From NCBI GenBank assembly GCA_002400895.1, contig NVRO01000155.1, positions 1 through 8,723 on the forward strand: a stretch of DNA of 8,723 nucleotides, read 5' to 3'. Both the position numbers and the translations under genes were made by a program. Positions 1 through 7,857 of this stretch are shown here, piece by piece. How positions within the stretch are numbered: the first letter of the stretch is position 1; every line of letters begins with the position of its first letter. The notes under the pieces were generated by a model, which searched no databases, had not been told where the DNA came from, and saw nothing but the letters and a program-made list of their open reading frames with translations. The stretch comes from Planctomycetota bacterium (GTDB lineage Bacteria; Planctomycetota; UBA1135).

Positions 1-981
1 ATTTTTGCGTCTTTGGGTGACTTGGGAATCAGCTCTGGTTCCCTGTTGGCGGATGGTTCCAGGTCATATTTTCCCGGACCTGAGCTCGTTTTCGATGAGG
101 ATTACTGCACCACCGACCAGGGCCACTGGATTGCGGCGCGGATTCACATCGCCCGCCACGAATGTAAGCGCCCACTTGCTGCCCCCCGGTTGATGTCCAT
201 TCTAAATCTGACAGCCGATTCTTTTAGCGATGGAGGCCGTATCGATACTCCTGAAATGCTGCTGGCGACCGCCAAGATTGAGCGTGATGCTGGCGCCAGC
301 ATCTTCGACTTGGGTGCGGAGAGCACCCGACCCGGGGCCGCACCGATTGCGGCCGCTAATCAGATCGAGCTCCTGGTCCCGGCAATAGAACTGTTGCGTC
401 CGCTCGGACTCCAGATTTCAATCGACACCCGTTGCGCCGCAGTGGCCAGTGCATGCATAAAGGCCGGTGCGCATATGATTAACGACGTGAGTGCTTTAAG
501 TGACCCGGCAATGGCTTCGGTGGTAGCTGAATCTGGTTGTCCCATTGTGCTGATGCATATGCGCGGAACTCCCGCCACCATGCAGCAGCATTGCAACTAC
601 CAGCATTTGCTGGGTGAAATCAGCGATGAGCTTGCCCTGCGGGTGGATTACGCCTTGGAGCAGGGCATTCAACCCGAGCAAATCATTCTCGACCCCGGAA
701 TAGGCTTCGCCAAAACCGCCGACCAATGTCTGGAACTGATTGGAAAATTTTCCAGTCTGCGAGCACTGGGCTTCCCATTGCTGTGTGGTCCATCGCGCAA
801 GTCATTCCTGAATGTTCCGTTGGGAGAACGCAAACCGCATCTGCGCGAACATGGAACTGCCGCGGCTGCGGCCCTCAGTGCCGCTCATGGAGCCGAATTT
901 CTGCGCCTTCACCAGGGTGCTGGCAATTGGGATGCGGTCCTGACTGCCCACTCCGCCGCCGTTGCCGGAATTGAAGCATGA
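1..981 (+). CDS. folP: Dihydropteroate synthase, 5' end probably outside the window
   Basis: This enzyme condenses 6-hydroxymethyl-dihydropterin pyrophosphate with p-aminobenzoate in cytosolic folate synthesis and is the sulfonamide target. The TIM-barrel motifs appear in order, numbering codons from base 1: MSILNLTADSFSDGG (65-79), DLGAESTRPG (from 103), IDTR (141), INDVSA (from 160), LMHM (184), DPGIGFAKT (231), GPSRKSFL (263) and the terminal RLH (302-304), so it should be active. The frame is open to the left edge. The only starts seen before the first motif are TTG codons such as base 13, and the ATG at 193 sits inside the first barrel strand with no ribosome binding site. I therefore treat the gene as continuing upstream or having an unusual start. 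About 40-60 residues precede the usual N-terminal hairpin and match nothing I recognise. The stop overlaps the cdaA start as ATGA, making it the first visible gene of the operon. Confidence 0.93.
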   Translation: MFASLGDLGISSGSLLADGSRSYFPGPELVFDEDYCTTDQGHWIAARIHIARHECKRPLAAPRLMSILNLTADSFSDGGRIDTPEMLLATAKIERDAGASIFDLGAESTRPGAAPIAAANQIELLVPAIELLRPLGLQISIDTRCAAVASACIKAGAHMINDVSALSDPAMASVVAESGCPIVLMHMRGTPATMQQHCNYQHLLGEISDELALRVDYALEQGIQPEQIILDPGIGFAKTADQCLELIGKFSSLRALGFPLLCGPSRKSFLNVPLGERKPHLREHGTAAAAALSAAHGAEFLRLHQGAGNWDAVLTAHSAAVAGIEA

Positions 982-1862
982 GCATCTTCGACAGATTGTT
1001 CGACCGCGGCACCCTCGGCATGGTGATTGAAATCATTACCTTGACCGCCATTTTCTACATGGTATTGCGATTCCTGCGCAGTACCCGAGGCTTCGGTATT
1101 TTGCGTGGCCTTGCAATTTTCTTCGCCTTTGCCTTCCTGTCATTTTCAATTCTGAGCATTTACCCCGGAGTGCCGGTCCTGGGCCACTTGTTGAAACAAG
1201 TCGCCCCTTATCTGATCTTGATTTTGTTCATCTTGTTCCAGCCTGAATTGCGCCAAGGTATTTCCCGTTTCGGCCGCGCCGGCATGTTCCGCTTCCTGAA
1301 TACCGTCGATGAAACACAACAGGCAATTCCGCAAGTTGTCCGCGCCGCTCAGCGCATGTCCAAAGAAAGAATCGGAGCACTAGTTGCCTTCGAGCGACAA
1401 GTTTCGCTGGCCCCCTACCGGGAAAATGCCGTCACCATTGAGGCACCGGTTTCCTCAATCCTGCTGGAAACCATTTTCTTTCCTGGCGCTCCGATGCACG
1501 ACGGCGCAGTGGTGGTACGCGAAGACCTGGTATTGGCGGCCGCGTGTCTTTTGCCTTTGGCCGATGCCGGTGAATCGCTCGGCCGCCTTGGCACTCGCCA
1601 CCGTGCCGCCCTCGGTTTGAGCCAGGAAACAGATGCCGTTACCTTGGTTGTTTCGGAGGAAAACGGTCAGCTAGCTCTTTGTGCCGGTGGGGTGATGTAC
1701 CGCCCAATCCCCCATGACCAGCTAGAAGACAAGTTGAACGAGTTGCTGTTGTCAACTCCACCAAAACCGAAACCGGAAACTGAGGCCACACCGGAGGTGG
1801 AAGCGCCTGGTAGCACCAATCCCCTGCCGGGAACCGGCAAGCCCGGGGAGGGAACAATCTGA
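978..1862 (+). CDS. cdaA: Diadenylate cyclase CdaA (c-di-AMP synthase)
   Basis: CdaA makes cyclic di-AMP from two ATP at the inner membrane; the messenger controls potassium and osmotic balance and wall homeostasis. Three hydrophobic segments (about residues 13-33, 40-61 and 66-88) precede the cytosolic DAC domain (about 90-250). Both catalytic signatures are present: MHDGA (173-177) and TRHRAALGLS (206-215). Where most relatives have PLHDGA, this one has PMHDGA, a mild change. At 294 residues it is slightly longer than the usual approximately 270, because of a proline/glutamate/glycine-rich tail (about 260-294) that looks disordered. The ATG lies in an ATGA overlap with folP, and the stop overlaps the ybbR start as TGATG. 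Its neighbours ybbR and glmM are the classic partners: YbbR proteins bind and modulate CdaA, and GlmM can inhibit it in Firmicutes. Whether that holds in this organism is inference. Confidence 0.95.
   Translation: MSIFDRLFDRGTLGMVIEIITLTAIFYMVLRFLRSTRGFGILRGLAIFFAFAFLSFSILSIYPGVPVLGHLLKQVAPYLILILFILFQPELRQGISRFGRAGMFRFLNTVDETQQAIPQVVRAAQRMSKERIGALVAFERQVSLAPYRENAVTIEAPVSSILLETIFFPGAPMHDGAVVVREDLVLAAACLLPLADAGESLGRLGTRHRAALGLSQETDAVTLVVSEENGQLALCAGGVMYRPIPHDQLEDKLNELLLSTPPKPKPETEATPEVEAPGSTNPLPGTGKPGEGTI
1847..1851 (+). promoter_or_regulatory. Ribosome binding site for ybbR
   Basis: GGAGG ends 10 bases before the ybbR ATG at 1862 and lies within the last codons of cdaA. It is the clearest Shine-Dalgarno sequence in the window. 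Most other starts here rely on stop-start overlap with little or no such motif. It supports the start chosen for ybbR. Confidence 0.6.
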
Positions 1863-3004
1863 TGGCGTCCTCCCTGCGCCGCTTCTTCCTGCACGACATG
1901 GGTCGCAAGCTGTTGGCACTCCTACTTGCCTGCGCTGTTTGGTGGATTGCCAACAAACAAATCACCGTGCAAACCCAAGCTACCCTGGTAATTGTTGAAG
2001 TAAATACCAGCGGACAACCAGACCCAGGCACTCTTGCCATCAGGCCCCCGAACGGATGGCAATTGGCGCAACCTACGGCAGGCAGCGAGACCCAGTTCTG
2101 GTACAAGGGACCGCGCAATCGCCTGGAACAATTCATGGAATCGGAACCGGCAGCTTTTTTTGATGCTGGTGCGGTCTTCACCGACCCCGGGAAAAACCAA
2201 CACAGCACCACCATCGAAGTTGATGCCACCGACTTGAGGTGGCGGCGCCAGGACGATGCCCGCTTGCTGCTTTCGGCCATGGGTGCGATTCAGCACAAAC
2301 TGCAACTGCGTTTCGATCGCCGTCACTCGGCTGAAATTATGCTGCATCCGGAACTGATCAAGGTAGTCGGCAACCCTGCGCCCGGATACCGTTGCCTTGG
2401 TAGCCACCTTCAGCTTTCTACCAACGCCATCACCATCAGCGGTCCCTTCGGTCGTATCGACGAGCTTGAGCGTCAACTCGAAATGTGGGCAAATGGCGAT
2501 GGTGGCACCCCGGTGTTTCTGGTAACACTCAAAGTCGATGGCGCCCGCACCGACCTCAAGCGCTTGCTGGGGCTGCGCACCGGCTTGCTCAATTCCGGAT
2601 TGAGCATGCATCCGGAACAGATTGAAGTCATCTTACCGGTGATTCTGGATAATCGCACCCCCATCGAATTCTCACCTCCAGAACCACAACGGATGGGCAC
2701 TCCCATCGCGGGGATATGGGACGCCCAGTTCACTGCGCAAGCCTGGGTGGCAGAACTTGCTGATCATCCCGAATTGCGTGACGTGGAGTTCAATACTGCA
2801 TGGGTTAACCGGCATCTGCGCTTGTTCCTGCCAATGGCGGAGATTCCAGAGGATGCCAACGAATACGACCTGCCTGTACAATGGATGCTCACCGGCATCG
2901 ACAACCCCGACAAGCGCGACCTGTTGCTGCGCAACCTAAATGTTATTCCGATTGCCAGCGAAAATGCCAAGGTACGTATGACCAAGCGAATTGAACAACC
3001 ATGA
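1862..3004 (+). CDS. ybbR: YbbR-domain membrane protein, CdaA regulator (CdaR-like)
   Basis: YbbR/CdaR proteins are anchored in the inner membrane by one N-terminal helix and expose repeated beta-rich YbbR domains outside the cytoplasm; in Firmicutes they bind CdaA and tune its activity. Here residues 13-30 (MGRKLLALLLACAVWWIA) give the typical anchor, with a basic stretch just before it. About 340 residues of divergent, strand-rich sequence follow, compatible with three or so YbbR repeats, although I cannot place the repeat borders by eye. No catalytic motif is expected or seen. The assignment rests on the anchor signature plus position: the start overlaps the cdaA stop (TGATG) and the stop overlaps the glmM start (ATGA). 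The 380-residue length fits the variable family. Confidence 0.82.
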   Translation: MASSLRRFFLHDMGRKLLALLLACAVWWIANKQITVQTQATLVIVEVNTSGQPDPGTLAIRPPNGWQLAQPTAGSETQFWYKGPRNRLEQFMESEPAAFFDAGAVFTDPGKNQHSTTIEVDATDLRWRRQDDARLLLSAMGAIQHKLQLRFDRRHSAEIMLHPELIKVVGNPAPGYRCLGSHLQLSTNAITISGPFGRIDELERQLEMWANGDGGTPVFLVTLKVDGARTDLKRLLGLRTGLLNSGLSMHPEQIEVILPVILDNRTPIEFSPPEPQRMGTPIAGIWDAQFTAQAWVAELADHPELRDVEFNTAWVNRHLRLFLPMAEIPEDANEYDLPVQWMLTGIDNPDKRDLLLRNLNVIPIASENAKVRMTKRIEQP

Positions 3005-4362
3005 GTGATCGTTTATTTGGCACTGATGGGATACGCGGGGCTGCCGGAGAAGAACCGTTAACCACGCCCACCCTCACCCGCTTGGGGCATTTACTGGGCG
3101 AACGCCTCCTCCAGGACGCTGACAACAGCACGCCACCTACGGTTCTGATCGGCCACGACGGGCGCGAGAGTGGCGAGACTTTATGTGCCGCATTAACTGA
3201 CGGTCTGACAGCTGCAGGCGCCATTGTTGAAATCGCAGGCTTGGCCCCGACTCCGACAGTTGCCTATCTGACTGCCACCGGTGATTTCTCTGCTGGCATA
3301 GTTGTTTCTGCATCACACAATCCGGCCGCTGACAACGGCATCAAGTTATTGGCTGCTGACGGCAGCAAATGCAGCGAGGACTTCGAGCTTTCCCTGGAAC
3401 AGGATCTGGTATCAACCCGCAAACTTGTCGCCGCACCCCAAAGCGGAGAGTGCCGACGTTCCAAAGGCCTGCTCGGCGATTATGTTGCCTGGTTGCGCAA
3501 CGAAGCATTTTCCGAACTTGACCTCAGTGGTAACAGGATTCTCATTGATTGCGCCAATGGGGCCTGGTCCCAGTTGTGTCCACGCTTGCTCAAGGCGTTC
3601 GGAGCGGAAGCGGTGTGCATCAACGACCGTCCGGATGGCAGCAACATCAACCTCGAATGCGGCACCATGTACCCCGAGGCAATGGCAGCAGCAACCCGCA
3701 ACAACGGTTGTCAACTCGGCCTCAGCGTTGATGGCGATGGCGATCGTGGCATCCTTGCTGACGGCAACGGGCGTCTGCTTGACGGCGACGCCATCCTCGC
3801 CGGCCTGGGTGCGCTGATGCATGCTCGCGGCGCGCTCGCCAACGACACCGTCACCGCCACCGTGATGAGCAATCTGGCGCTTGAAAAATGGTGTCAACAA
3901 CAAGGCATCAACCTCCATCGAACTCCCGTCGGTGACCGCCATGTCGCTGCCGCCATGCGCGAACAAGATTTGTGTCTTGGGGGTGAAAAGTCGGGACATA
4001 TCCTGTTTGGTGCCGAACACGGTTTTCGGGGAGACGGTATTTACACCCTCTTGAAAGTCTTGTCTGAACTTTCCATTGCCGGGCATGAGATTGATGCATT
4101 TGCCGACGGATACGCCGATATGCCACAGGAATTGCGCAATCTGAAGGTCAATGAGCGCCGCCCCCTAGAGGAATTGACGCAACTTGCAGCCGCTGATATC
4201 GAAGTTACTGCCGACTTGGGAAATAGTGGACGCACCGTAGTTCGCTTTTCCGGTACTGAATTGAAATTACGCCTGATGGTCGAGGCGGAAACAACTGAAA
4301 TGGTCACTGCAGCCCTGGACAAACTCCAGAACGCGGCCTGCGCCGACGGCATTCTGTCCTGA
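3001..4362 (+). CDS. glmM: Phosphoglucosamine mutase
   Basis: GlmM converts glucosamine-6-phosphate to glucosamine-1-phosphate, the cytosolic step leading to UDP-GlcNAc for peptidoglycan and lipopolysaccharide. The four-domain phosphohexomutase layout is complete. It has FGTDGIRG (6-13), the phosphoserine loop SASHNPAADNGIK (103-115, catalytic Ser105 by comparison with the E. coli enzyme), the metal loop DGDGDR (244-249), the sugar loop GGEKSGHIL (327-335) and the phosphate-binding loop RFSGTE (415-420). That last loop is RPSGTEP in most relatives; here Phe and Leu replace the two prolines while Arg and SGTE are kept. The 453-residue length is normal. The ATG overlaps the ybbR stop, and tsaB begins 3 bases after the stop. 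Choosing GlmM over phosphoglucomutase or phosphomannomutase rests on the start motif FGTDGIRG and the cdaA-ybbR-glmM order. Confidence 0.95.
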   Translation: MSDRLFGTDGIRGAAGEEPLTTPTLTRLGHLLGERLLQDADNSTPPTVLIGHDGRESGETLCAALTDGLTAAGAIVEIAGLAPTPTVAYLTATGDFSAGIVVSASHNPAADNGIKLLAADGSKCSEDFELSLEQDLVSTRKLVAAPQSGECRRSKGLLGDYVAWLRNEAFSELDLSGNRILIDCANGAWSQLCPRLLKAFGAEAVCINDRPDGSNINLECGTMYPEAMAAATRNNGCQLGLSVDGDGDRGILADGNGRLLDGDAILAGLGALMHARGALANDTVTATVMSNLALEKWCQQQGINLHRTPVGDRHVAAAMREQDLCLGGEKSGHILFGAEHGFRGDGIYTLLKVLSELSIAGHEIDAFADGYADMPQELRNLKVNERRPLEELTQLAAADIEVTADLGNSGRTVVRFSGTELKLRLMVEAETTEMVTAALDKLQNAACADGILS

Positions 4363-4365
4363 GCA

Positions 4366-4980
4366 ATGACTGCTCCCCTGCTTGCGCTGGAAACATCAGC
4401 GGAACAACCTACGGTTGCAATTGAGACTTCCGATGGTATTTCGCACCGCAGTTTCGAGGGCGGGAGAGGCAAACATCTGATTCCCGAGATTGATGCCCTG
4501 CTTAAGGAATGCGCCATCGACAAGAATGAACTTGGAGGAATCGTGGTTGGTACCGGACCCGGCTCCTACACCGGATTGCGCATCGCCTGCGCTGCCGCTC
4601 GTAGCCTCGAATGGGCACTGAAAATTCCCGCCCGCGGCTTTTGTAGTTTTGAGGCAATGGCGCTGGACGGCAAGCTGGGACAGGACACCCATATACTCAT
4701 CAATGCCTTTCGTGGCGAACTCTATCACGCCTGTTATCGGCGTGAACAAGATCAACTTGAAGTGGTGACTGCACCACGGGTAATCGCCAAGGATGATGGC
4801 GGTATTGCAGTTCCCGCCGGAGCAAATTTAATTGGCGATCCGAACTTGTTGCCACACCCGGTCAACTGTCTGCAAGAACAATGTATTCCGCTTGCTCAAC
4901 ATCTATTGTTACTCGCCAAGCTACGGGGCTTTAATCGCGGAACCGAACCAGCACCGCTCTATTTGCGAGTCGCCCGCTGA
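4366..4980 (+). CDS. tsaB: tRNA threonylcarbamoyladenosine biosynthesis protein TsaB
   Basis: TsaB is the non-catalytic partner of TsaD in the complex that installs t6A at position 37 of ANN-decoding tRNAs, a near-essential cytosolic process. The protein opens with the ASKHA-type strand LLALETS (5-11). It carries the family hallmark GTGPGSYTGLR (62-72) and ends with the usual PLYLR (197-201). At 204 residues it is slightly shorter than many homologues (about 220-235), but both ends are intact, so I see no truncation. The start is 3 bases after the glmM stop and no clear Shine-Dalgarno motif precedes it, so it probably depends on coupled translation. It is the last gene of the operon and converges on the histone gene. 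RimI, often adjacent to tsaB, is not here. Confidence 0.92.
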   Translation: MTAPLLALETSAEQPTVAIETSDGISHRSFEGGRGKHLIPEIDALLKECAIDKNELGGIVVGTGPGSYTGLRIACAAARSLEWALKIPARGFCSFEAMALDGKLGQDTHILINAFRGELYHACYRREQDQLEVVTAPRVIAKDDGGIAVPAGANLIGDPNLLPHPVNCLQEQCIPLAQHLLLLAKLRGFNRGTEPAPLYLRVAR

Positions 4981-5034: not shown

Positions 5035-5064
5035 AGCGACACGCCCTGCAAAGGGCGTGTCGCT
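5035..5064 (-). terminator. Intrinsic terminator of the histone gene
   Basis: A perfect 13-bp stem (5035-5047 paired with 5052-5064) closes a GCAA tetraloop at 5048-5051, which has the same sequence type as stable GNRA loops when read on the + strand. On the minus strand the stem is followed at once by TTTT, the pattern of a Rho-independent terminator for the gene ending at 5081. On the + strand no T run follows, so it is a weaker candidate for the tsaB operon, though the stem could still protect that transcript's 3' end. Confidence 0.75.
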
Positions 5065-5067
5065 GGA

Positions 5068-5082
5068 AAACCGATTCGGTTT
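5068..5082 (-). repeat. Small inverted repeat at the histone stop codon
   Basis: AAACCG and CGGTTT flank three bases (6-bp stem, 3-base loop). The right arm overlaps the TAA stop of the histone gene. It stands immediately before the larger terminator hairpin, so the mRNA would end in two tandem hairpins. A 3'-end stabilising role is inference. Confidence 0.4.
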
Positions 5083-5380
5083 ATAGATCTTGAGGACGGA
5101 GAGTCTTGCGACCGTTGGCGGAGGCGCGCGCCTCGGCGTTGGCGATAGCTACACGTACGTAGCTGTCCAAGGCTCCGTAGAAATCGCCGGAGACGTTGCA
5201 GCTGTAAACAGCGTTCTTGGTCCGGCTCTTGGAAATGATCAATTCAGCAAACTTGGACTTCTTGTTGCCACCTTTCTTGTTGCCACCTTTCTTGGCGGCA
5301 GCCTTTTTGGTGGACTTCTTGTAATTCTTGGCAGTCGACTTCTTAGCCATCTTCTTCTTTGTTTTTTTCTTGGGAGCCAT
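5081..5380 (-). CDS. Bacterial histone-fold DNA-binding protein with lysine-rich N-terminal tail
   Basis: This 99-residue protein has two parts. Residues 1-43 are a tail with 20 lysines plus Ala, Thr, Ser and Gly, including KKGGNKKGGNKK (30-41), reminiscent of histone H1 tails. Residues 44-99 fit the histone fold: a first helix around 46-58, a loop with NVSGDF (62-67), a long second helix (about 66-89), then NGRKTLRPQDL (89-99). That ending matches the RKT(V/L)xxxD second loop of archaeal histones and the short-third-helix bacterial histones, with Arg91, Thr93 and Asp98 as the expected stabilising set. I infer a dimeric, nucleoid-associated DNA-binding protein. It stands alone on the minus strand, convergent with tsaB. 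The ATG at 5380 is preceded by AAAGAGAA about 5 bases upstream, a weak ribosome binding site. It is not HU, which lacks this signature. The fold call is by eye. Confidence 0.8.
   Translation of the reverse strand: MAPKKKTKKKMAKKSTAKNYKKSTKKAAAKKGGNKKGGNKKSKFAELIISKSRTKNAVYSCNVSGDFYGALDSYVRVAIANAEARASANGRKTLRPQDL
5261..5290 (-). repeat. Two exact 15-bp tandem repeats in the histone tail
   Basis: Bases 5261-5275 and 5276-5290 are identical (CTTGTTGCCACCTTT on the + strand) and encode the two KKGGN-type units of the histone tail. The unit is a multiple of three, so copy-number change would lengthen or shorten the tail without shifting the frame. Confidence 0.85.
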
Positions 5381-5449: not shown

Positions 5450-5479
5450 ATTGTCCACGCAACCATGGTCCGAGGTCAA
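5450..5479 (-). promoter_or_regulatory. Candidate sigma70-type promoter for the histone gene
   Basis: On the minus strand TTGACC (5479-5474) and GACAAT (5455-5450) are separated by 18 bases, matching 5/6 and 4/6 of the standard -35 and -10 boxes. This would give a leader of roughly 60 bases. Another -10-like GATAAT lies at 5499-5494 with no convincing -35. It also overlaps the annotated start of the divergent gene. Confidence 0.3.
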
Positions 5480-6640
5480 CCTAAACTAGGTAATTATCGC
5501 TTTATACTGGTATTTGGGATTAATCTACCAGCAGTAATAATGTCACCACCCGTACTCGCTCAACTGGTCATGGTCACCAGCATTGTCACCTCAGTGCCAA
5601 TCCTGGCGACTCCGTTTTTCCAAACTGATCCGCTCACCGAACGGGCAATGGAGCGGTTTGAACAGCTCGACCAAGCCGAACAATCCCGCATTGCTTCGCG
5701 CGCTTACCAAACAGTGCTGACCAGTTCACACCCCCTGTGCGCAACCGCCGCGAAGTTGGAAAATTATCTCCTCGAGCATGCACTCAAGAGCACCGATTGG
5801 GAACTTGATCGCAGCTATCAAGCCGCCCGCTGGGCACCGGCATTGAAGTTGACTACACGCCATTGGAAGCGTGGTTCGCGCAAGTGGAAAAGAGCTGAAA
5901 AAGAGCTGTTAGGTGCAGGAAACAGCGTTTCCCGGCAAAACACATGGGAGTGGGATTACGGCCGCAACCTGATTTTGGAACCGCTCAAACCAGCCACGCC
6001 GAGTCAGCAAATGCGTGCACTGTTGGGAGGTCAATGGCCGCACCCAGGTCGCCTGAAAGCAATCGCTGCTGCCCATTTGGATGATGACGACTCCCGCAAT
6101 CAAGTCGCCGATTACTTCAACCATTGCTACCGCGACCGCGAGGGAAATGTATTCGATGAAATCCTGCTTTTCGAAGTATGGGACACCGGTTACGAAATAG
6201 AGGTTTCCGACGTTGAAGCAATTGCCTGGCTACGGCTGATTAAGAAAAGCACCAAGACTTCCTCCCCTATTCCGGCCGCAAAACACGATTTGATTTATTC
6301 CCATATTTCCAATTCATTCGAGACTTGGCGTGAATATTGGACCTTGCGGCAAGCTTTGGCTGCAAGAATTGTCAATCCCTCAGGCACTATCCCCGCACGG
6401 TTTTCCGGTCTCGAAGGAGAGCTGGACACCGCCTGGGCTCTTCTCCACCACGACTTGGAGCAAATGACCAAACTTGTTTCCGAGGCAACCGACCGCGCCA
6501 GTTTTTTCACCTTAATCAATGAGTTGAGCAAAACCAATGAGCTCCCTCCCCACTCACGCGCAGGCTTAGCCGATGAGATTCGCAGGATTACGATTGAAGT
6601 GGTGACAGAAGAAGGACTTCTCGGCCTCGGACGACGCTGA
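5465..6640 (+). CDS. Unrecognised protein with hydrophobic N-terminus, possibly exported
   Basis: I do not recognise a named family. From the ATG at 5465 it has 391 residues. A hydrophobic stretch (about 28-51) suggests a membrane anchor or signal peptide. A helical region (54-150) follows, with a basic patch around RHWKRGSRKWKR (132-143). Then come WEWDYG (161-166), an acidic DDDD (206-209) and a compact segment YRDREGNVFDEILLFEVWD (222-240), which recalls unnamed planctomycete proteins; that similarity is from memory. No catalytic motif stands out. The start is uncertain: no Shine-Dalgarno motif precedes 5465, a second in-frame ATG lies at 5540 just before the hydrophobic stretch, and a -10-like TATACT at 5503-5508 would fit the later start. 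It is divergent from the histone gene, and alr follows after 53 bases on the same strand, so the two may be co-transcribed. Confidence 0.75.
   Translation: MVRGQPKLGNYRFILVFGINLPAVIMSPPVLAQLVMVTSIVTSVPILATPFFQTDPLTERAMERFEQLDQAEQSRIASRAYQTVLTSSHPLCATAAKLENYLLEHALKSTDWELDRSYQAARWAPALKLTTRHWKRGSRKWKRAEKELLGAGNSVSRQNTWEWDYGRNLILEPLKPATPSQQMRALLGGQWPHPGRLKAIAAAHLDDDDSRNQVADYFNHCYRDREGNVFDEILLFEVWDTGYEIEVSDVEAIAWLRLIKKSTKTSSPIPAAKHDLIYSHISNSFETWREYWTLRQALAARIVNPSGTIPARFSGLEGELDTAWALLHHDLEQMTKLVSEATDRASFFTLINELSKTNELPPHSRAGLADEIRRITIEVVTEEGLLGLGRR
5503..5508 (+). promoter_or_regulatory. -10-like box ahead of the 391-residue gene
   Basis: TATACT matches 5/6 of the -10 consensus, but no good -35 box lies at the expected distance. 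If real, transcription would begin near 5515 and the working start of the downstream gene would be the ATG at 5540, not 5465. Confidence 0.22.
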
Positions 6641-6693
6641 AATTTGGCCCTGCAAGCGGCTCGGGTAGAAGCCGGAATAGGTATTCTGAACGG

Positions 6694-7857
6694 GTGAGCA
6701 ATAGGCATCGCGCATGGGCAACTGTGGACTTGGAGGCGTTCCGGCACAACCTCCGGGTAATTCGTCGGTTTGCCGGACAGGCGGAAGTTTGGCCGGTACT
6801 GAAGGCAAATGCTTATGGGCACGGTGCCCGCGCAATCGCCCGGGTTTGTGAATCCGAAAATGTAGCCCTGCTGGGAGTAGGTGACAGCACCGAAGCGCTG
6901 GAATTGCGTGATGCTGGTATCAACACTCCTCTCCTGGTGCTCGGTACTGCGGTTGATTCGGAAATCCCCGCACTGCTGGAACACGACATTGAAGTTGGAG
7001 TGCATTCCGAAGTTCGTGCCTTGCAACTCTCAGCAGCAGCGCGGGCCGCCGGCCACCGTCTCGGCGTACACCTCAAAATTGACACCGGGATGACCCGCCT
7101 CGGAGTTCTGCCGGAGGCTGCCTTGCGCGTCGCCCAGACTGTATCCAGTGAACCTTGGCTTGAACTGCGCGGGGTTATGACCCATTTCGCATGCCCAGGC
7201 GGGTACGACGAAGTCGCTACTGCGGAGCAAGAACATCGCTTTGCCAAGACTCTGGACCAGCTACGCGCGCATGGACTTCCAGTTGCCAAGGTCCACTGCT
7301 CAAATTCCGCTGCCCTATTCACCGGTAAACAGGTCTTTGGAGATGCCGTTCGCCCGGGCATCGCACTTTACGGGGTAATGCCACTTGCTCTCCAACAGGA
7401 CTTTGGCCTGCGGCCAGTCTTGTCATTGCAAACCCAAGTGGTTTTCTTGAAGGACATCCCGGCTGCAACTGCGGTTGGCTATGGGGGGAAATGGCGTGCC
7501 CCTTCACCAACCCGACTGGCGGTGATGCCGCTTGGCTACAACGACGGTATTCCTTACCGATTAGGGGCTGAAGGACACGGCAAAGTGCTCCTGCGCGGAC
7601 AATTTTGTCCGATTGTCGGCGCCATCTCGATGGATTACTGCACCGTCGACGTCGGTCACGTTCCCAATGTTGACATCGGTGACACCGTCACTCTGATTGG
7701 CCGTGACGGGGACCATAGTCTGTCAGTTCAGGATTTGTCCGCAGCGGCCGGCACCATCCCGTATGAAATCGTCTGTTCAATCGGCTCGCGGGTGCACCGG
7801 GTGTACCACCATGATTCCGCTACCGCTGCCGACGAACCCGTAGAAATATCAGGATGA
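6694..7857 (+). CDS. alr: Alanine racemase
   Basis: Alr interconverts L- and D-alanine with pyridoxal phosphate and supplies D-Ala for peptidoglycan; it is cytosolic and acts as a dimer. The N-terminal barrel carries VLKANAYGHG with the cofactor lysine at 37. KIDTGMTRLG (128-137) holds the arginine expected to tune the catalytic tyrosine. AVGYGGKW (260-267) contains the second catalytic base, Tyr263, and the C-terminal domain has GAISMDYCTVDV (309-320) and TIPYEIVCSIGSRV (354-367) of the active-site entrance. All key residues are present and 387 residues is normal. The start is a GTG at 6694; it places the usual approximately 6 residues before WATVDLEAFRHN, and no better start lies nearby. 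The ribosome binding site is poor. The stop overlaps the next gene's ATG (ATGA), pointing to coupled translation. Alr being retained suggests a peptidoglycan wall. Confidence 0.96.
   Translation: MSNRHRAWATVDLEAFRHNLRVIRRFAGQAEVWPVLKANAYGHGARAIARVCESENVALLGVGDSTEALELRDAGINTPLLVLGTAVDSEIPALLEHDIEVGVHSEVRALQLSAAARAAGHRLGVHLKIDTGMTRLGVLPEAALRVAQTVSSEPWLELRGVMTHFACPGGYDEVATAEQEHRFAKTLDQLRAHGLPVAKVHCSNSAALFTGKQVFGDAVRPGIALYGVMPLALQQDFGLRPVLSLQTQVVFLKDIPAATAVGYGGKWRAPSPTRLAVMPLGYNDGIPYRLGAEGHGKVLLRGQFCPIVGAISMDYCTVDVGHVPNVDIGDTVTLIGRDGDHSLSVQDLSAAAGTIPYEIVCSIGSRVHRVYHHDSATAADEPVEISG

Follow-up and report, generated by a model that had tools for sequence, protein, structure and literature searches.

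A putative face-to-face histone with a lysine-rich N-terminal arm and its relatives in Planctomycetota

The bacterial and archaeal histones closest to the protein described here belong to a family in which the third helix is truncated. According to the available text of PMC12701072, HLp is tetrameric in solution and winds about 60 bp of DNA around itself, and its Leptospira host carries no HU. In the available text of Schwab et al. (2024, PMC11390915), positively charged N-terminal tails on bacterial face-to-face (FtF) histones are already reported, with Planctomycetota named as hosts, and a chain that ends after the second loop is presented as a trait of the whole α3-truncated family. An arginine and an asparagine make the dimer-dimer contact of FtF histones (R41 and N45 in the Haloferax member, R49 and N53 in HLp), and bacterial dimers such as HBb lack both, as far as the available parts of these sources go (PMC11390915, PMC12701072). 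Here, we analyzed a stretch of 8,723 nucleotides (hereafter the window; contig NVRO01000155.1 of assembly GCA_002400895.1) from a Planctomycetota bacterium of the UBA1135 lineage, which carries a gene for a histone with a long lysine-rich arm. The product is likely an α3-truncated bacterial FtF histone with a disordered N-terminal arm, which would form a DNA-wrapping tetramer whose arms raise affinity and compaction. The gene and its two parts are located as follows.

5081..5380, minus strand: gene of the putative tailed FtF histone, based on its open reading frame, homologs, fold model and PDB profile matches
5252..5380, minus strand: N-terminal arm, residues 1-43, with 20 lysines, no acidic residue and low model confidence over residues 1-40
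5084..5251, minus strand: histone fold, residues 44-99, carrying the FtF signature R85, N89, R91, T93, D98 and L99

The gene runs from an ATG start to a TAA stop and encodes 99 amino acids. The arm also lacks arginine and has a net charge of +20, and the 56-residue fold domain, which ends directly after the second loop, has a net charge of +3. Lysine makes up 2.8% of the other eight proteins encoded in the window, in which the most lysine-rich stretch of 43 residues holds six; at this content, the chance of finding at least 20 lysines in 43 residues is about 4e-20, so that the lysine count given in an earlier sequence-only reading of this DNA was confirmed as far beyond expectation. The histone gene uses 18 AAG and 5 AAA codons, compared with 36 and 40 in the eight other genes, a weak difference (Fisher p 0.016).

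Structural modeling indicated that the C-terminal part adopts a histone fold. For the C-terminal 52 residues, AlphaFold2, supplied with an alignment of 52 cores, gave a mean predicted local distance difference test (pLDDT) score of 87.9 and a predicted template modeling (pTM) score of 0.54, with a short helix 1 at core residues 4-13, a long helix 2 at 18-41 and one final turn at 49-51. In this model, the third helix is predicted to be shortened to a single turn and the chain ends at core residue 52, in line with FtF histones, whose third helix comprises 3-4 residues; the third helix of about 10 residues that marks nucleosomal histones is thus not predicted. Open reading frame, composition and core model agree with the sequence-only reading in its central description, that of a bacterial histone with a truncated third helix and a separate lysine-rich arm, and the monomer prediction it had called for returned the expected fold. 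The full-length model, built with 40 homologs, was less confident overall (mean pLDDT 68.1, pTM 0.35): the last 29 residues form a block at 87-94, and the first 40 residues lie at about 48-59, for which reason the arm is read as disordered.

In Foldseek, the core model matched HTkC first and HLp next, followed by HBb and then eukaryotic histones; all 50 matches listed, of 1174, were histone folds, and HTkC and HLp ranked top for the full-length and core models alike. None of the 1174 matches reached E <= 0.001, because the core model is short. The VIA-align scores were tied among HBb, HTkC and HLp, and the fold alone therefore indicates a histone and no subtype. Pfam-A offered no family for the protein at E <= 1. 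Two NCBIfam candidates, the Rv3852 family (E 0.046) and valine--tRNA ligase (E 4.3), fell far below the cut-off, aligned mainly with the lysine-rich part and were rejected, as was human H2B, which appeared in the PDB profile search with tails included (E 0.047), partly through its own lysine-rich tail, and was no longer listed when cores alone were used. The C-terminal domain of eukaryotic linker histone H1 is lysine-rich and disordered, like the arm in the window. The label "H1-like" in the sequence-only reading holds for the composition of the arm in this respect and does not extend to the domain: no linker-histone domain was found in the protein at E <= 1, and its globular part is modeled as a histone fold, unlike the winged helix of H1.

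The subtype was indicated by individual residues. The FtF motif RxTxxxxD of loop 2 and helix 3 is present as R91, T93 and D98, and the two dimer-dimer residues, located six and two positions before the arginine of the RD clamp, are present as R85 and N89; both are invariant in the 52 aligned cores, as are the DNA-binding and tetramer residues in general. Of 1076 candidates in a protein search, 974 were homologs at E <= 1; 120 of these homologs were listed, some of them under source names such as planctomycete proteins, "histone H3/H4" and "DUF1931". In all 120 of the matches listed, the pattern R...N.R.T....D followed by a single residue forms the C-terminal end, this residue being leucine in 119 and isoleucine in one. 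Such an end right after the loop is understandable because, in FtF histones, it joins the tetramer contact. A profile of the core, searched against the PDB, matched HTkC at E 2.8e-11 and HLp at 2.9e-6, followed by the archaeal histone-like chain HmvA (0.1) and by HBb (0.59-0.65); HTkC was found at 6e-4 already with the window sequence alone. The histone profile search thus supported the histone assignment, and by its residues the protein is assigned to the predicted FtF subtype.

The sequence-only reading had placed the protein with the Bdellovibrio type and had envisaged bending or coating of DNA by the fold. We consider a dimeric histone of the HBb type with an added tail quite unlikely, even though HBb has the same short third helix, equals the FtF histones as a fold match by VIA-align Z and TM-score, and Planctomycetota are also among the hosts of bacterial dimers in the available text of PMC11390915. 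The early chain end, being shared across the α3-truncated family, is not particular to the Bdellovibrio type, and the sequence profile separates HBb from the FtF structures by several orders of magnitude. Moreover, the arginine and asparagine that are absent from bacterial dimers are present in the window protein and in the homologs listed, which makes wrapping by a tetramer likelier than bending or coating by a dimer. Kinship with the Bdellovibrio type is accordingly not supported.

On the FtF assignment, and by analogy with HTkC and HLp, two subunits would dimerize via the long helix, and two dimers would close into a ring, the torus-shaped tetramer that characterizes FtF histones, via R85, N89, R91 and the C-terminal residues. 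Homology to HLp leads us to expect that this ring wraps a similar length of DNA, about 60 bp, probably without sequence preference. Four arms of about +20 each, together about +80, could then reach flanking or neighboring DNA and neutralize its charge. This sum would suffice for a substantial share of the phosphate charge of wrapped or flanking DNA, so that tighter binding and DNA-DNA association are expected, and the arms may raise affinity and compaction in a manner resembling the tails of eukaryotic core histones and the C-terminal domain of H1. Most of the charge resides in the arm (+20 of +23), and long arms conserve charge and composition and not exact sequence, which would also suit a protein acting mainly as an H1-like or polyamine-like compactor, with the fold as a mere dimerizing anchor. 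This explanation seems unlikely to us: the core is far better conserved than the arm (45/52 versus 27/47 identical aligned residues between the window and locus L001), its DNA-binding and tetramer residues do not vary, and orthologs without a tail persist.

The survey of tail presence called for by the sequence-only reading revealed long, short and tail-less forms. It drew on the best 80 of 164 loci found, 77 of which, together with the window, gave 78 sequences; L012 (contig end) and L030 and L032 (GTG starts) were left out. Arm length was counted as the residues before the conserved IISK, which makes the window arm 47 residues long, and the start was taken as the farthest ATG with a K+R share of at least 0.25, or else the nearest ATG, with L001, L025, L067 and L068 trimmed by hand. 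The pre-core length was at most 5 residues in 8 sequences, 6-21 in 33 and at least 27 in 37, and none of the 78 fell at 22-26. The 37 long arms have a mean lysine share of 0.385 and a mean net charge of +0.435 per residue. Among the 120 homologs listed, 118 have at least 15 residues before the core, including P0074, which is not lysine-rich and probably has a misread start; this count overstates the frequency of long tails, because the query was itself tailed and 120 of 974 homologs were listed. Three distantly related FtF histones within the phylum (L149, L150 and L151) carry arms of about 48-61 residues with AKKT-like or KKKT-like repeats, and long lysine-rich arms therefore occur outside the close family of the window protein as well.

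The arm evolves faster than the core, and by insertions and deletions, which were seen even among close relatives. In the window itself, one such change is visible.

5259..5288, minus strand: two exact 15-nt tandem copies, each coding for the same five residues of the arm; homolog P0002 has a single such unit

P0002 equals the window protein minus one five-residue unit, and the pair thus captures growth or shrinkage of the arm in progress.

The genomic neighborhood allowed arm length to be followed at one chromosomal place. Beyond the histone gene, the window contains the following features.

1..4980, plus strand: folP, dacA (cdaA), a ybbR-like gene, glmM and tsaB, the conserved upstream neighborhood, with family matches for FolP, DacA, GlmM and TsaB
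5035..5064, no strand assigned: perfect inverted repeat (13-bp stem, 4-nt loop) that separates the 3' ends of the convergent tsaB and histone genes
5465..7857, plus strand: gene of a 391-aa protein and alanine racemase gene, on the other side of the histone gene

The name ybbR-like is our assumption from gene position, as the product had no family match. The inverted repeat is possibly a shared terminator of tsaB and the histone gene, and it was not among the predictions of the terminator scan. The 391-aa protein (5465-6640, plus strand, divergent from the histone gene) had no Pfam or NCBIfam match and lies beside the histone in 21 of the 80 loci. Within flanks of up to 6 kb per locus, often cut by contig ends, one or more of the window's neighboring genes had a homolog in 45 of the 80 loci, with order and orientation as in the window in all 45 (glmM in 43, tsaB in 37, dacA in 34, alanine racemase in 29, folP in 27 and the 391-aa gene in 21). 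The other 35 had no such homolog within the fetched flanks, including all 16 loci assigned outside the Planctomycetota by NCBI ranks.

In a quick, midpoint-rooted tree of GlmM and DacA (43 rows; the arm of L012 was set by hand to 49 residues from P0039, which has the same core), the window grouped with L001 and L004, with a support of 98 in the Shimodaira-Hasegawa-like approximate likelihood ratio test (SH-aLRT). Arm length is clade-structured: in a clade of 21 rows, arms span 30-58 residues, with L008 (4 residues) as the exception; a 7-row clade has arms of 14-17; in a clade of 14 rows, arms span 27-44, apart from a single row with 17; and L057, with an arm of 28, stands alone. At least three changes between long and short arms are required on this tree. 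L008 keeps 7 of 8 neighbors and has no arm, nor any lysine-rich stretch in any forward frame over the 252 bases before the core, so that gain or loss of arms takes place at an orthologous position; the midpoint-rooted tree does not tell these two directions apart.

Exact tandem duplication, arm indels among close relatives and tail-less orthologs might also be expected if the arm were a neutral low-complexity expansion without function, an explanation we regard as very improbable. The nonsynonymous rate in the tail (dN) was below the synonymous rate (dS) in all 10 pairs with computable dS, of 12 locus pairs measured, at ratios of 0.07-0.48, in comparisons that have rows in common and hence lack independence; the arm is therefore translated and under selection. 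None of the 1343 residues of the 37 long arms, leaving out the last five before the core, is acidic, and long arms mark two whole clades of the neighbor-gene tree, bar one row each.

By source label, though bin labels may be wrong, the 80 loci comprise 55 from Planctomycetota, 16 from other phyla (Methylomirabilota 5, Krumholzibacteriota 5, Eisenbacteria 2, and Latescibacterota, Gemmatimonadota, Acidobacteriota and Myxococcota 1 each) and 9 unplaced; of the 16 from other phyla, 14 had a start assigned, and in these at most 21 residues precede the core. Close core homologs with a short arm or none (L023, L026, L027, L037, L042, L055, L059, L062, L065, L069, L070 and L076) come from bins labeled Eisenbacteria, Methylomirabilota, Latescibacterota, Krumholzibacteria, Gemmatimonadetes, Acidobacteria and Deltaproteobacteria, most of these phyla being absent from the main hosts of bacterial FtF histones given in the available text of PMC11390915. 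In a sample of the phylum, 153 of 392 genomes had a match at E <= 0.001 and 34 a close one (E <= 1e-21), followed by a gap to the next match at 6e-13. We scanned 71 loci, consisting of 31 loci and 40 fetched regions (4 from close genomes and 36 from the 119 weaker ones, mostly from their stronger end), some of them already contained in the 80-locus set. R...N.R.T....D was present in 71/71, several weaker members extending 2-4 residues past the aspartate, and arms ranged from none to about 60 residues. A phage origin was rejected, since 143 pattern matches in one viral-contig scan included no relatives by tblastn.

HU content was assessed in the genomes of seven relatives; each has a single close histone, and HU-family genes number one or two per genome, 11 in total. 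The histone is therefore no replacement for HU in these genomes, and, as none of the 11 HU-family genes has a lysine-rich extension, the arm is particular to the histone. Both HU-family genes in the genome of L008 (L158 and L159) end in long C-terminal extensions that are acidic or proline-rich, and HU of other relatives has shorter non-basic extensions as well.

A wider proposal, offered tentatively and with some doubt on our part, is that in one Planctomycetota lineage an FtF homotetramer acts as a mini-nucleosome of about 60 bp, with H1-like arms of its own, the length of which is tuned as in-frame repeats are gained and lost at a fixed locus, and that it acts beside HU and not in its place. 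If so, tailed nucleosome-like particles would have arisen in bacteria separately from the line of archaea and eukaryotes. Tails make eukaryotic nucleosomes regulable. Relatives with 1 to about 58 pre-core residues, partly at one chromosomal place, would form a natural experiment on the value of a tail to a DNA-wrapping ring, and the complete chromosomes of Planctomycetes bacterium Pla163 and Pla86, which carry tailed members, suggest that the question can be addressed in cultured bacteria.

In comparison with known systems, HBb/Bd0055 of Bdellovibrio bacteriovorus (8CMP, 8FVX) shares the histone fold and the truncated third helix, as described in the available text of PMC11317129 and PMC10627809, but has no FtF tetramer residues and no long arm, and its profile match lies at E 0.59-0.65. 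HTkC of Thermococcus kodakarensis (PDB 9F2C) is the best match by both sequence and Foldseek, whereas it is archaeal, and its crystallized chain has 59 residues and no long arm in the available text of PMC11390915. HLp of Leptospira perolatii (PDB 9QT0-9QT2) has the truncated third helix and, as counterparts of R85, N89, R91 and D98, the residues R49, N53, R55 and D62, but it is 63 residues long with a short N-terminus, and its host, according to the same partial source as above (PMC12701072), has no HU, unlike the relatives of the window. The available text of the published work holds no account of a clade pattern in arm length, a conserved locus, arm turnover or arm selection. The combination of tail and fold, whose novelty the sequence-only reading overstated, is already known in bacterial histones: the window protein shares the FtF core, the positively charged N-terminal tail and the Planctomycetota host with the tailed bacterial FtF histones in the available text of PMC11390915, and it joins that group.
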